From NCBI GenBank assembly GCA_024741835.1, contig JAENRP010000053.1, positions 128,715 through 192,714 on the forward strand: a stretch of 64,000 nucleotides of DNA, written 5' to 3'. Positions 1-54,731 of the stretch are shown here, piece after piece. The stretch comes from Diplocarpon mali. Lineage: Eukaryota > Ascomycota > Leotiomycetes > Helotiales > Drepanopezizaceae. Numbering within the stretch: the first letter of the stretch is position 1; every line of letters begins with the position of its first letter. Under the pieces are notes generated by a model. It was not told where the DNA came from. It did not search any database and worked only from the letters and a program-made list of their open reading frames with translations. Both the position numbers and the translations under genes were made by a program.

Positions 1-1506
1 GGTGAGAGGAGCAGGATGGTACCACTCCGGCAGCCTTATCAGATGGCAGCGGGCGGACCCGTTGAGAGCGAGCAGGATGATGGTGCCTTTCCAGAAACAT
101 TGGGACCTGGTTCGCTACGGGAATACCGACCTAAGAAGCCCCAATATATATATATATATTTTCCTTATTAGTGTCTGACAATTTTCTTTCTGCCCTCGAG
201 CTTCTCCCGGCCCTCGATTGTACGAAATAGTCATGAAAGGCAATAAGCAGGTTCGCAGGCTGAGCCATCGGTGTCCTGAAGTTCAGTGTATTGGAGACGG
301 GTCAAGGCAGTCGAGAGGCTAAAGCAGAGTACAAGCTCACGCCCCCTCCTTACGAGGCAGAGACGTTTCAGCATCGTACATACACATGCCCGATATCCAT
401 CTACAAACCAAGACCGCCGCCCTCTCACGCGTAGCATATTCACTCGGTGTATCGGAATCTCTGAAGGCTGACATCCGAAGGTCGCCTGTCACGATGGAGT
501 AGATCAGACACGCTTCCCTTGACCATATCACAGAGCTGCCCCGAGAAATTCGTTCGGATGCTGCACGCGGGTCGTTGATCCCGGCCGAGAGTCCACCGAT
601 TATCTGCATCGAGCCCCGTACGGTTTGTCGTAGTCGGCAACCTCCCCAGAAACCCCAGCTAGCCTCTGACCATGGCCCTCCCACGCCGACCTCTTCCGTT
701 CTCCCGCCAAGCTGGGAACTCTTTCGGCAAGAGAAAACTGGCCGTCTAGCATCCTGTGGGGAAGAGAAGGCTCGTCAGCGGCGGATTCTCGATCCGGGCC
801 GTCGTCTCATGTCTCATCGCCCAGCTCTCCGTTGGAAGCGTCGCGGTGCCGGTATGCCCGTCGCCTCTTGGTCAGGGGAGTCTCGGGCCCGCAACCTGAT
901 CGTATCTTCTTCGAAGCGCACATTCTGTATCTTCGTGACACGAAAATGCCCAGACACCGCGTTTGCCGACCCGAGATCAGAGCCCTTCTTCTGCGCCTCC
1001 GGAGGCATGACAGCTCATTACTCCCCCTCGCGAGGGGGAGGGTTCTCTTCAAGCTTGCCGCGAGGCGGTCATACTCTCGACCCCCTTGAGCTGGTGCTGT
1101 GAATTGGGATTATGGCTGCCCCACGAGGAGACACGATGCAAAAGGGCTTGGCACCCGAGAAAGGCTCGGCGTGAAAGTCGTGGAAAACCCCGTCGGAGGC
1201 CCCTCCTGACACGGCTCCCTGAATGCCGTAATCGAGCAGCAAGAAGCCGATGTTTATGCCGTGGAGGCCGCGCCGGGGAGCTCTTGTTGCATTCTACTCA
1301 CAACCTCAGGCAAGCAAGGCATCGTTCGTCTGTTCTCGCTTGGCTTCCACAACCTCGGCAAGAGCTTTTGGAAAAGGAATGCCGAAAGAACGCAGGCTGA
1401 GCAGGGAGTAAGTACTTTGGCTTCTACTCCAACTTCAACAGCGGTGTTTGCATTCGAGTGGGGATCAAAAAGCAATTGGAGGTGATGGTGTAAACAAAAA
1501 GACATG
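1..1506. other. Intergenic DNA, no gene seen
   Basis: Open frames here are short, overlap on both strands and match no family I know. There is a short TA run near 147-160 and a GC-rich stretch. The A-runs near 1477-1481 and 1496-1500 are T-runs on the minus strand and lie just beyond the tRNA gene. Confidence 0.5.
1496..1500 (-). terminator. Pol III T-run terminator
   Basis: Five T on the minus strand, six bases after the discriminator base. It suggests that the gene is, or recently was, a Pol III unit. Confidence 0.75.
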
Positions 1507-1517
1507 TGCGTTCGCCG

Positions 1518-1528
1518 GGAATCGAACC
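1518..1528 (-). promoter_or_regulatory. Pol III B box of tRNA-Gly
   Basis: GGTTCGATTCC on the minus strand matches the B-box consensus exactly. The partner A box is split by the D-arm insert. Its 3' half is kept next to intron bases as CCAGAGTGG, a partial match only. Confidence 0.85.
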
Positions 1529-1541
1529 CGGGGCCCATCGA

Positions 1542-1564
1542 GGCTGCGGCGGGTGTGACCCTGA
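1542..1564 (-). other. Canonical-position tRNA intron (anticodon loop, 37/38)
   Basis: This 23-nt insert lies between A37 (1565) and T38 (1541), the standard site cut by the tRNA-splicing endonuclease. The sequence repeats at the junction, so the exact edge could shift by one or two bases. Confidence 0.8.
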
Positions 1565-1587
1565 TGGCAACGATGGATTTTACCACT

Positions 1588-1640
1588 CTGGATCCGCGTT
1601 AGTATCAGTCAGATCAGGTGCTGTTCGTGGGATAACTTAC
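1588..1640 (-). other. Putative spliceosomal intron inside the tRNA-Gly D arm
   Basis: This 53-nt insert begins with GTAAGT (1640-1635), contains TACTAAC (1604-1598) and ends with CAG (1590-1588). The branch A at 1599 lies 11 nt from the 3' end. These are the best possible fungal 5' splice site, branch site and acceptor, at normal spacing. Removing it restores TGGTTT+AGTGG, the conserved tRNA-Gly A box and D arm. It is not at the tRNA-endonuclease position. Confidence 0.8.
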
Positions 1641-1653
1641 AAACCACAAACGC

Positions 1654-2600
1654 TTCTTGTCATTGGTGAATGTAACCTATTCTTATATATGTCCAGTTTC
1701 AAACTTCAAGGGGCAGTAGCCAACTAGCACCTACCAGTTTGCCGATGTCAGCCGGTAGCCACACTGCACGGGTCACCAGGGCTTTTTTTTTTTTCGAGAT
1801 CGGGCGGCTGCCGCATCGTCACTCGAGATGCTGCCCGTCAGTAACAGCAATTGAATCCTCACTACAGATTCCAACAAGCCCATCACGCCAACACCGCGTA
1901 TTTCCTCCTCAGCACACTCCCGCTCCGTCAGCCTGGCTGCATCACGAAGCGAGGCCGCCAGGGCAAGCCCGTCCGTGGGCATGGTAAGCCGAGGCGGTAC
2001 AGTCCGTTGTGAGGATCACGAGATGCCTGGACCGTGCTCGAGGAGAACGAGATTGGATACTGGCGGGCCGGCCTGGGTCTGGATCGCGCCAGGTCGACAT
2101 CTCTGCAACGGCAGAACGAGATGTAAGATCGGGCGTCGTCCGGAATCCGAATCGCCCGCCTCGACCACGGAGAGTCGGCGGAGGAGGGCACCACGATCAG
2201 AACAGTCATGTCTTTCATCCACGCCTGCGTACACCGTACGTGTAGAAACCCTCCCCCTCTTGGCGAGCTGGGCCGCGACGGTCAAACTCCGACGTCAAGG
2301 CGGACCGGAGCATCTTGATCCTGAGAAGTGTCCGAGGCACGACCGCTGCTGGCCGTACGAGAAGGAATTTCATCAAAGAGGAGCGCCCTGATCAACATTG
2401 CAGAACCAAGCTGTCGACCGGGCAAAACTACGCCGAGAGTAATTGATGGGCATGAGCCAACTGCAGTTCGTGTACTCAATTATCCGAATTCAGTAACCTT
2501 CGCTCGCGATCTCGTCAGAACCCGCACCCAGGATGTAATGCAGCAGAATGAACACCCCGCTAGAAACGCCAACCACTCAACACCACCCCCTCCGCAATCA
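1654..2600. other. Intergenic DNA, no gene seen
   Basis: Open frames of up to about 180 codons lie on both strands with low-complexity Arg/Pro/Ser content and no recognisable domain. An 11-base T run sits near 1784-1795. Confidence 0.45.
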
Positions 2601-52002: not shown

Positions 52003-54731
52003 CTAACTGATGTCCGCCGCACTCTCGTCTTCTTCTAGCATGGTCCTGAAGTTGAACGGCTCGAACGGAATGCCATCACCCATGAAATGCTTGCTCATAG
52101 CCTCAACCCAGTGCAGGCGCAGCGAGTGCAACATGGCACTGGTGCCCTCCATCACGACCAGGACGGCGACGGAGAGGAAGAACCAGAGGTAGAAGGCAAT
52201 GACGAGGCCAATGACGCCGAGAGGGCCCGTGAGTGCGAGGCCGTTCTGCAGTGTCATGGTCCAGAGGACGACAGAGAGTTGTTGATGAGCGAGGGAGAGG
52301 GCCCAGAGACGCAGATAGGAGGCTGTATGGGAGACGCAGTTGAGGCAGAATTCTGACCTACTGTAAGCGTATACATAACAGGAGGGAAGTGGAGGAGCAT
52401 ACCAATTGTGTGGATAACTTGATGGATCATAACCTCACTAAACTCAAACTCCTCGTGCTCCTCGTCATCTCCAAGGCCCTGGGTAATCATCGCGACACCC
52501 TCACCTTCGCTGTTTAGACTGCTTCGTCCGGCCAGAGTGTTGCTATCCTCATCATCCCCATCCAGAGCGCTGACGCGGGAAGTCTCGCCGATACCTCTGT
52601 ATCCTTTCGCACGGTTCTGGTTGTTCTCCCAGCGAAGGTAGAACGGTTTGAGGAAGAGCAGGATTGGGACTTGGACAAGGGCGATGAGTACCAAGAATAC
52701 CTGGACGCCGGCTTGACCACCATATAGCGGCTCTTCGATTGTACCCGGAGACAGAAACATGTAGATAAGCATGTTGAGAAGTCCAGGGGGCGAGGCTCCG
52801 ATAGCGTACCAGTCGATGGACCATTTGTACACGATGGTGAAAACAAGGTACCCGAAGATAGCCTGGAAGAAGATCATCCCAGGGACAAAGACACCCCAGA
52901 TATCGACTGGGGTCTTGAAGTGACGGGCGTTGATGTACGACAGGCACAGCGAGTATGTCATATGACACCAACCCATCAAAATACTGAGCTTCATCTTGTA
53001 ACTGTTAGAAAACAAGAGATCGTTCTCAGTACCATGCCACATCCAGTCCAGGCCAAACGGATAGCGATAATCGCCCTTCAATGATGCAGTAACGACCTGT
53101 CCCTCTTTCCATCCTTCAGGGACGTCCCATTGCCAGGCGCTGGGGAAGATGGAGAGAGACTTCGAGAATACGTCGTTGTAGATGAGACCAGTGTACATGG
53201 AGAAGATACCCATCATCAGCATGATGTACCGTCCATAGTATGCCATGGAGAACAGCTCGTCGCGGACCTTTTTGAGTGGTTTCTCCCAGTAGATCATGGC
53301 AGAGGCAGCAGCGAACATAATAAATCCGTGACCGAAGTCACCAAACATGACAGCGAACAAGAACGGGAACGTGACGATGGTGGGCAGGCCGGGGTTGACT
53401 TCCTGATACTTGGCTGTTCCGTAGGCATTGATAATGGTCTGGAAACCCTCAGTAAATCTGTTCGTCTTCTGGTATGTGGGCGGCGTCTTATTCGTCCGGA
53501 TTTCATTGATAATCGAGGGTACCGAGAGTCCGGCCCTGTTGTTGACATCATGGAGAGTCGACTTGATCAGAGGCAGCGAGTTGGTGGGGCACCACGCCTC
53601 AGCAATCAGCGTCTTCCTGGCGTGGTCATACGAGAACAGATTCAGCGTCTGGTAGACCGCCTTCTCCTTCTTGATGATGACCATCCAAGCAGCCAAGCTC
53701 TGTGCAATCTGGCCCAGTTCTGCACCAAGCGTCATCTTCGTGTTATTCAGCACGTTTCCCAGATCCCCCAAACGTGTGTTGACTTCATGGATCTGGTCTC
53801 TCCTCAGGTCACTGTTCTCGTCCACACTGTACAGATCCGCACCCAACGACTCGGAGATCTTCCTGATCTTCGCAATAAGCTCCTTTCCGTGGGCGAAGAT
53901 AACAAACACGTTCTTGTTGACGGCCTCATTGTTTGCAGGGTCGACGAGCGGCTCCGGGATCTCGGATTGGTTCATGTAGAGGTTTCCTCTCAGTGTCCGC
54001 CACAAGATGCGTTCGAAAGCAGCGACTCTGTCCCGAGGAATCACACCAGCCACGAAGCCAATGTTCATGACGGAGAACGAACGCTCCGCATCTCCATTCT
54101 GGACAGGCTGCTCAACGTCCTGCAGGAGAGGGGCGTCGTCGTCGTCATTCGAGGTCCGGATCCCCTCGACATTGCCGTGTGCCCGGTCGAAGAACCCACC
54201 CGCCTCCCTTAACACCCATCGCCATTCCGTCAGCTCCACCTCCCGCTTCTTCAGCGTCTCGTAGCTGTCATTGAGCGATGCGACTCGTTTCTCGAGACTC
54301 TCGCTGCGGGCGGCCAGTTCGTCGATCTCGGAGGCGGAGGGCGCGGCCAGCGTGTCGACGTCGAGATCAATCTTGCGGAGAGGGATTCCCGCCTTCTCCA
54401 TCTGCGTGTGGAAGAAGCCTGCCCACCATCAGCTAGCTGTCAGTATCGTCGGACTTATGGGAACCTACGAAGCTGCCTCTCCACATTATCCAATCTCCTA
54501 ATCTCTTGGGTGAAAGTTCGCTGGAAAGCAGTCACATCCGAATTGAGCTACCCCATCATCAGCACCAGCTCCTCCCACTCGCCGCATGACAAGTATACGC
54601 ACATCTCTGAATTGGATCTGCCCAAGCTCTCCCAGTGCGTTGACAATCTCGCGCCCGATTTCGTTGGCGATGTAGAGCTGGACCATGCTCATGTCCGCAG
54701 ACCGAAACATGGTATCTTCGTGTTGCACCAT
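52003..54731 (-). CDS. VPH1: V-type ATPase 116-kDa subunit a (Vph1/Stv1)
   Basis: Four exons, 54731-54603, 54547-54469, 54418-52403 and 52352-52003, phases kept, 857 aa. The N-terminal cytosolic half opens [39 protein letters not shown] and NVERQLR. Coiled coil: [18 protein letters not shown]. The membrane half starts near [20 protein letters not shown] and has the usual eight hydrophobic segments, with [20 protein letters not shown] and [17 protein letters not shown]. The last exon begins [22 protein letters not shown], which carries the essential arginine of proton transport. The protein forms the proton half-channels of the V0 sector at vacuole or Golgi. Vph1 or Stv1 cannot be separated; most filamentous fungi have one, called Vph1. 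Length is as expected. Confidence 0.95.

Follow-up and report, generated by a model that had tools for sequence, protein, structure and literature searches.

Inserts with spliceosomal intron signals in nuclear tRNA genes of the ascomycete Diplocarpon mali

Can the spliceosome act on transfer RNA (tRNA)? The introns of tRNA genes and those removed by the spliceosome are regarded as two unconnected classes, each with its own enzymes, and we know of no case in which the messenger RNA (mRNA) splicing machinery processes tRNA. The question is raised by a tRNA-Gly(GCC) gene in a stretch of 64,000 nucleotides (nt) from contig C53 of Diplocarpon mali, hereafter the window, which holds, besides a short intron at the canonical position 37/38, an insert in its D arm that looks like an mRNA intron. 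Here we describe this gene, L009, and the other nuclear tRNA genes of the genome that carry such an insert in the body of the tRNA. Judged from sequence, L009 is best explained as a working nuclear tRNA-Gly(GCC) gene whose body insert is a U2-type GT-AG intron; at least 18 tRNA genes are interrupted in this way, and very probably the inserts at large are spliceosomal introns that are removed to make working tRNAs.

The tRNA-Gly(GCC) gene and the signals of the inserts

An earlier note on this DNA had placed the two introns at 1588-1640 and 1542-1564, and re-reading of the sequence finds these coordinates exact: exons of 13, 23 and 35 nt join into a 71-nt tRNA-Gly(GCC) with a 7-bp acceptor stem (one G-U pair), D arm, anticodon arm and T arm. 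The body insert sits at 13/14 instead of the canonical position, which the second intron of 23 nt occupies. Rfam and ARAGORN scans of the window itself give nothing, as expected for a gene broken by a body intron. The note had proposed a comparison with and without 1588-1640 by tRNAscan-SE; in such a comparison on the gene alone, ARAGORN finds no tRNA in the unspliced form, whereas without 1588-1640 it reports tRNA-Gly(gcc) and a 23-nt intron.

The GTAAGT, TACTAAC and CAG that had been pointed out in the 53-nt insert are indeed there, and signals of this kind recur in other tRNA genes of the genome. The loci were located by pairing of T arm and acceptor, tRNA covariance matches or similarity, without splice-site criteria, and insert borders were afterwards drawn by eye. 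So delimited, the 18 inserts measure 48-65 nt; all begin with GT and end with AG, and all hold a YTRAY branch-site motif with its A 9-14 nt before the 3' end, for which the background is 3.3%. The first six positions are G in 18, T in 18, A in 14 (G in two, T in two), A in 15, G in 17 and T in 16 inserts; at least three of the four positions 3-6 match AAGT in 17 of the 18, GTACGT being the form in L100, and the third-last position is T in nine, C in eight and A in one. Among 1,997,400 random window segments of the same lengths, GT..AG ends and a branch motif 9-14 nt from the end coincide at a rate of 1.2e-4, and with 18 of 18 inserts against this background a chance motif match is rejected. 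Two choices each take a small cost factor per insert from this comparison, namely that the branch range was fixed after the inserts had been seen and that the borders can slide by 1-2 nt in some genes; a cut slid by one base leaves the same product in 7 of 17 genes in one direction and 3 of 17 in the other.

Splice signals are conserved in sequence that is otherwise unrelated, the cores of 17 inserts (136 pairs) showing no mutual likeness (mean z 0.16, best z 3.4). An origin as introner or transposon copies was rejected, as BLAST with L009, L115 and L057 (3 of the 18 inserts) found tRNA relatives only, and at this sensitivity no repeat of their inserts. Avoidance of internal terminators was also considered: none of the 18 introns contains TTTT, but as 11% of random segments do, about two were expected and the deficit is not significant. 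The comparison with mRNA introns of the host covered two, both in V-ATPase and read by eye, which look like the tRNA inserts with lengths of 55 and 50 nt and CTGAT near the end. The V-ATPase subunit a gene of the window encodes a protein 91-92% identical to ones named for Cadophora, Rhexocercosporidium and Mollisia, and by this one protein the fungus would probably belong to the Helotiales.

Census of interrupted genes and search for intact copies

The genome (49,369,952 bases, 676 contigs) was scanned with the Rfam tRNA model RF00005, whose 45 matches were read one by one; weak matches to the model, a pattern of B box plus T-run and two BLAST searches (His, Met) supplied further loci. The pattern occurs at 101 places, against 35 for the same pattern read backwards, which gives the chance level; 100 were listed and part of these fetched, followed by a search for matching acceptor strands. 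The RF00005 scan is incomplete, having missed uninterrupted genes such as L061, L089, L095 and L103. The census is a lower bound. It comprises 67 nuclear tRNA genes, the uninterrupted ones being 42 plus seven from the pattern search (L061, L089, L095, L103, L107, L112, L113); L013 and L102 were left out for want of a convincing 5' part, and L040 as apparently mitochondrial. Eighteen of the 67 are interrupted, at ten positions between 8/9 and 55/56 and in ten amino-acid families (Table 1). The earlier note saw one case, in the D arm; L009 belongs to a family of such genes, in which inserts also lie in the variable loop (L057), the T loop (L135) and the T stem (L100). The note's spliceosomal-type reading gains strong support from inserts of the same kind in the three remaining Gly(GCC) genes and in 14 genes for other tRNAs.

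When the body insert is removed in a script, ARAGORN recognises a tRNA in all 18 genes; the isotype is the expected one in 17, while L111 is read as Pyl cta. Left unspliced, 13 yield nothing, four a wrong isotype and one Met, read with one long intron. After removal, 17 of the 18 also show an anticodon-loop intron of the 37/38 type. The exons are conserved. Compensatory changes, identified by eye, separate L057 from L135 (acceptor 7:66 from A-T to T-A, D stem 13:22 from T-A to G-C) and L093 from L111 (acceptor 6:67 from C-G to T-A), and the acceptor pairs concerned reach across the introns. For interrupted Glu(TTC) and Ala(AGC) there are uninterrupted paralogs with matching exons.

BLAST of L009 against the genome finds four other places and no more at E <= 10. 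In L010 and L011 the insert interrupts the tRNA at the same point as in L009, is 50 and 52 nt long, begins with GTAAGT in both, has the branch motifs TTACTAAC or TCTAAT and ends in TAG or CAG; L012 is interrupted at 8/9 instead, with GTAAGA..CCTAAC..CAG. The mature tRNA is identical in the four genes (71/71), while their body-intron cores are no more alike than shuffled sequence and their 37/38 introns (23-27 nt) differ as well. These loci are not recent duplicates, because the BLAST alignments stop within 3 nt of the gene ends, and the simplest reason for the identical product would be that the tRNA is in use.

That many intact Gly(GCC) genes might exist elsewhere, which in the earlier note's view would, together with a lack of spliced RNA, have made L009 a dead insertion, was followed up across the genome, and none was found. 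The 30-nt 3' end with up to three mismatches returns only the same five places as BLAST. With GGTTCGATTCCCGG there are five places, four Gly(GCC) and one Gly(CCC), every one interrupted, and a fungal Gly(GCC) probe has no match in the genome with up to three mismatches. A pattern for an uninterrupted D arm, with one mismatch allowed, hits 15 places, where the sole Gly(GCC) gene is L012, a match that it owes to the final G of its intron. Six of the 15 are tRNA genes already listed (L012, L035, L038, L039, L058, L075); L120-L123 do not read as tRNAs, and L124-L128 were rejected after a scan gave no T arm with matching acceptor strands. Nor is there an intact Gly(GCC) gene among the places read from the B-box pattern search. 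BLAST of L115 found two His(GTG) genes and BLAST of L057 two elongator Met genes; both pairs are interrupted, the Met genes at different places. Uninterrupted genes for Gly(GCC), His and elongator Met are therefore absent within the searches made. The only Tyr gene seen, L100, is interrupted too, in a census that included no dedicated Tyr search. Every complete gene found for these four tRNAs is interrupted, and if they truly are the only ones, the cell cannot translate without removing the introns.

Table 1. Features of the tRNA-Gly(GCC) gene, body inserts of the other interrupted tRNA genes and two further loci of the window. Plain numbers are window positions; tRNA positions of the inserts were assigned by eye.
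Feature	Coordinates	Strand	tRNA position	Details or basis
tRNA-Gly(GCC) gene L009, two introns	1507..1653	-		147 nt; joined exons give 71-nt tRNA-Gly(gcc)
Exon 1, 13 nt: 5' acceptor strand (1653-1647), T8, G9, 5' D-stem strand	1641..1653	-		1653-1647 pairs with 1514-1508
Spliceosomal-type intron, 53 nt	1588..1640	-	13/14	GTAAGT, TACTAAC, CAG
5' splice site GTAAGT	1635..1640	-		sequence
Branch-site motif TACTAAC	1598..1604	-		sequence; presumed branch A at 1599, 11 nt before intron end
3' splice site CAG	1588..1590	-		sequence
Exon 2, 23 nt: remaining D arm, 5' anticodon stem, anticodon GCC, A37	1565..1587	-		sequence
Intron of tRNA endonuclease type, 23 nt	1542..1564	-	37/38	ARAGORN and comparison of Gly(GCC) genes
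Exon 3, 35 nt: 3' anticodon stem, variable loop, T arm (box B), 3' acceptor strand, discriminator A	1507..1541	-		sequence
TTTTT, terminator-like for RNA polymerase III	1496..1500	-		sequence; 6 nt after the gene
TATA-like element TATATAAG	1682..1689	-		sequence; starts 36 nt upstream of the gene
Gly(GCC) L010, L011			13/14	
Gly(GCC) L012			8/9	
Gly(CCC) L075			9/10	
Glu(TTC) L092			12/13	
Gln(CTG) L093			20a/21	
Gln(CTG) L111			20/20a	
Lys(TTT) L101			8/9	
Leu(CAG) L062, Leu(TAG) L114			20/20a	
His(GTG) L073, L115			12/13	
Ala(AGC) L096			15/16	
Ser(TGA) L129			9/10	
Elongator Met L057			46/47	variable loop
Elongator Met L135	G000:C27:112128	-	55/56	T loop
Tyr(GTA) L100/L130	G000:C36:19209-19354	-	52/53	T stem
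V-ATPase subunit a gene	52006-54731	-		
HET-domain-like (heterokaryon incompatibility) reading frame, 652 amino acids	8771-10729	-		by eye

Transcription, processing and rival explanations

The earlier note had reasoned that an RNA of this kind would need two splicing machines, or transcription by RNA polymerase II (Pol II). Two machines are also what we infer as the best account of the sequences; Pol II transcription is not needed, because T-runs and TATA-like upstream sequence resemble those of uninterrupted tRNA genes. TTTT lies within 45 nt downstream of 14 of 17 interrupted and 39 of 42 uninterrupted genes, some of the 17 having been found with the T-run pattern; ten genes were found without it (L009-L012, L057, L096, L100, L101, L129, L135), and nine of these have a T-run within 45 nt. 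TATA-like sequence stands upstream of 9 of 17 against 25 of 42, and a TATA element as substitute promoter specific to interrupted genes was rejected, since it is not enriched. RNA polymerase III (Pol III), which these same signals point to as the likely polymerase, uses an A box and a B box at tRNA positions 8-19 and 52-62, according to passages of PMC3978253. Introns from 8/9 to 15/16 cut the A box and those of L100 and L135 the B box, and no gene read has both cut.

In the pathway that we propose, Pol III would transcribe the gene and stop at the T-run, aided by the TATA-like element upstream and an unbroken B box (A box if the intron is in the T arm). The spliceosome, which also splices fungal U6, would then take the body intron out of the pre-tRNA in the nucleus. 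The ends would be trimmed by RNase P and RNase Z, and after the tRNA has folded, tRNA endonuclease and ligase would take out the 37/38 intron. Presumably the body intron is gone before RNase P, RNase Z and endonuclease act, because it keeps apart the two strands of a helix (acceptor, D or T) by which these enzymes recognise the tRNA. That the host spliceosome accepts Pol III RNAs is made likely by the U6 small nuclear RNA gene of the same genome (G000:C67:136807-136959, + strand, the one U6 locus above the cut-off), which has a 51-nt intron of the same design, read by eye as ..AGCATGGC^GTGAGT..GCTAATG..CCAG^CCCTGCACTAAGG...

Three other accounts have to be set beside spliceosomal removal from Pol III transcripts. 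The tRNA splicing endonuclease might cut the inserts out as non-canonical introns, like those of the red alga Cyanidioschyzon, nucleomorphs and Crenarchaeota, and their splice-site look would then be incidental. Non-canonical introns of D and T arms do exist elsewhere (passages of PMC4090602 and PMC3978253), and the usual anticodon-loop intron in 17 of the 18 genes would suit that enzyme. A central 4-bp helix of the bulge-helix-bulge (BHB) type is possible, however, in 4 of 17 inserts against 16% for random placement (a single-helix test on a set without L100), and this account, which we hold to be very improbable, leaves GT..AG ends with branch motif in 18 of 18 inserts unexplained, as well as a U6 intron with the same signals. 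Hardly more credence goes to the idea that the interrupted genes are dead copies with chance insertions, and that intact genes supply the tRNAs; indeed, we give it the least. A review presumes most eukaryotic tRNA genes with D- or T-arm insertions to be pseudogenes (passage of PMC4090602), and L013 and L102 look damaged. Dead copies would nevertheless hardly have kept exons identical at 71 of 71 positions over four loci with unrelated introns, nor compensatory stem changes together with conserved splice signals, and the intact Gly(GCC), His and elongator Met genes that should do the work were not found in the searches above.

Splicing is normally coupled to Pol II, and the introns might be spliceosomal while the genes are transcribed by Pol II or read through from Pol II units, with splicing coupled as for mRNA. 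Broken A or B boxes in most interrupted genes would fit. Against it stand the T-run and TATA-like counts, alike in interrupted and uninterrupted genes, the T-run in nine of the ten genes found without that pattern, and the splicing of U6, a Pol III RNA, in fission yeast (passage of PMC10484740). We regard Pol II transcription as unlikely.

Several observations also weigh against spliceosomal removal as the general explanation. L096 is exceptional in its weak 5' site GTACTT and its final AAG. Pol III recruitment should suffer where box A is broken, as in the D-arm cases, and where box B is, as in L135 and L100. The census brought no recognisable gene for Asp, Phe or Val, and may therefore also have overlooked an uninterrupted gene that is built unusually. 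L013 (G000:C2:258788, - strand) is a Gly-like 3' half and L102 (G000:C13:15845, - strand) a Lys-like 3' part; neither has a convincing 5' exon within the 300 nt searched, only loose 6/7 acceptor matches 193-228 nt upstream, and they may be dead copies, or genes with longer introns. The interrupted Gln, Leu and Lys genes depart from their relatives at several bases of the exons, which makes the borders there less exact, and a third V-ATPase intron could not be resolved.

Two further elements with B-box features were seen. Each of the three Ala(AGC) genes found (L038, L039, L096) and of the two His genes (L073, L115) is followed within 70 nt by another hairpin that resembles a T arm and has a B box, a feature of no other of 58 genes checked; by eye, the stems of this hairpin differ in sequence and keep their pairing, and it may be an additional TFIIIC site or a structure of the trailer. 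The B-box-like text GGTTCAATTCCTYTARTTTCC belongs to a repeated element with many copies in a pattern search, on contigs C6, C9, C13, C15, C110, C114, C243, C245, C281 and C568.

Significance and comparison with known introns

If spliceosomal removal holds, one gene needs both machineries, and some essential tRNAs seem to exist only in such a form. Even Pol III precursors of very small size, in which exon 1 measures as little as 8 nt plus leader (L012, L101), would be within reach of the spliceosome, and intron gain in non-coding RNA would become directly testable, there being ten positions, unrelated introns and uninterrupted paralogs. We are inclined to think that a wave of spliceosomal-intron gain into tRNA genes, possibly through reverse splicing into transcripts of Pol III, a route proposed for U6, became obligatory, so that decoding of Gly GGC/GGU, His, elongator Met and Tyr depends on a spliceosome acting on Pol III pre-tRNAs that need two unrelated splicing machines. 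Such genes can be missed by tRNA finders, as ARAGORN gives nothing or a wrong isotype for 17 of the 18.

The earlier note knew of no tRNA with a spliceosomal intron, and titles and abstract openings in the open-licence PubMed Central (PMC) literature searched, with passages of the likeliest papers, a scope that leaves subscription papers and preprints aside, offer no precedent either; novelty, in the sense that introns of an established class occur in a kind of RNA from which they had not been known, is likely rather than proven. A 2014 review (PMC4090602) places most eukaryotic tRNA introns at 37/38, with nucleomorphs and Cyanidioschyzon as exceptions in the passages drawn on here, and the word 'spliceosom' is absent from its main text. 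The introns of Cyanidioschyzon merolae, nucleomorphs and Crenarchaeota resemble the body inserts in lying outside 37/38, D and T arms included, sometimes as second intron of a gene (passages of PMC4090602 and PMC3978253). They are, however, tied to the endonuclease and the BHB motif or, in the Guillardia nucleomorph, are 3-24 nt long and of unknown mechanism, compared with 48-65 nt and spliceosomal signals here.

Canonical nuclear tRNA introns at 37/38, handled by endonuclease and ligase, occur side by side with the body inserts in 17 of the 18 genes (1542-1564 in L009); the body inserts differ from them in lying elsewhere, in their GT..AG ends and branch motif and in showing no BHB enrichment. 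Rogers et al. (1993, cited in PMC11782384) are reported to have described spliceosomal introns in ascomycete 18S ribosomal DNA, which would likewise be mRNA-type introns in a non-coding RNA of filamentous ascomycetes; ribosomal RNA is a Pol I transcript, however, and tRNA is not involved. The introns of fungal U3 small nucleolar RNA are closer: they are ordinary spliceosomal introns and interrupt a small RNA with a defined structure. To date, no small structured RNAs other than U3 and U6 are known to be frequently interrupted by introns, and those of U3 lie almost exclusively in one 5' stem-loop (passages of PMC5832005), whereas the tRNA inserts span 8/9 to 55/56. The mRNA-type introns of fungal U6 are like the tRNA inserts in being of the spliceosomal type and in interrupting a short, structured RNA made by Pol III. 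U6 belongs to the spliceosome itself, however, while here many tRNA genes are concerned, in ten families and at ten positions, and 17 of the 18 also hold a second intron of another class.
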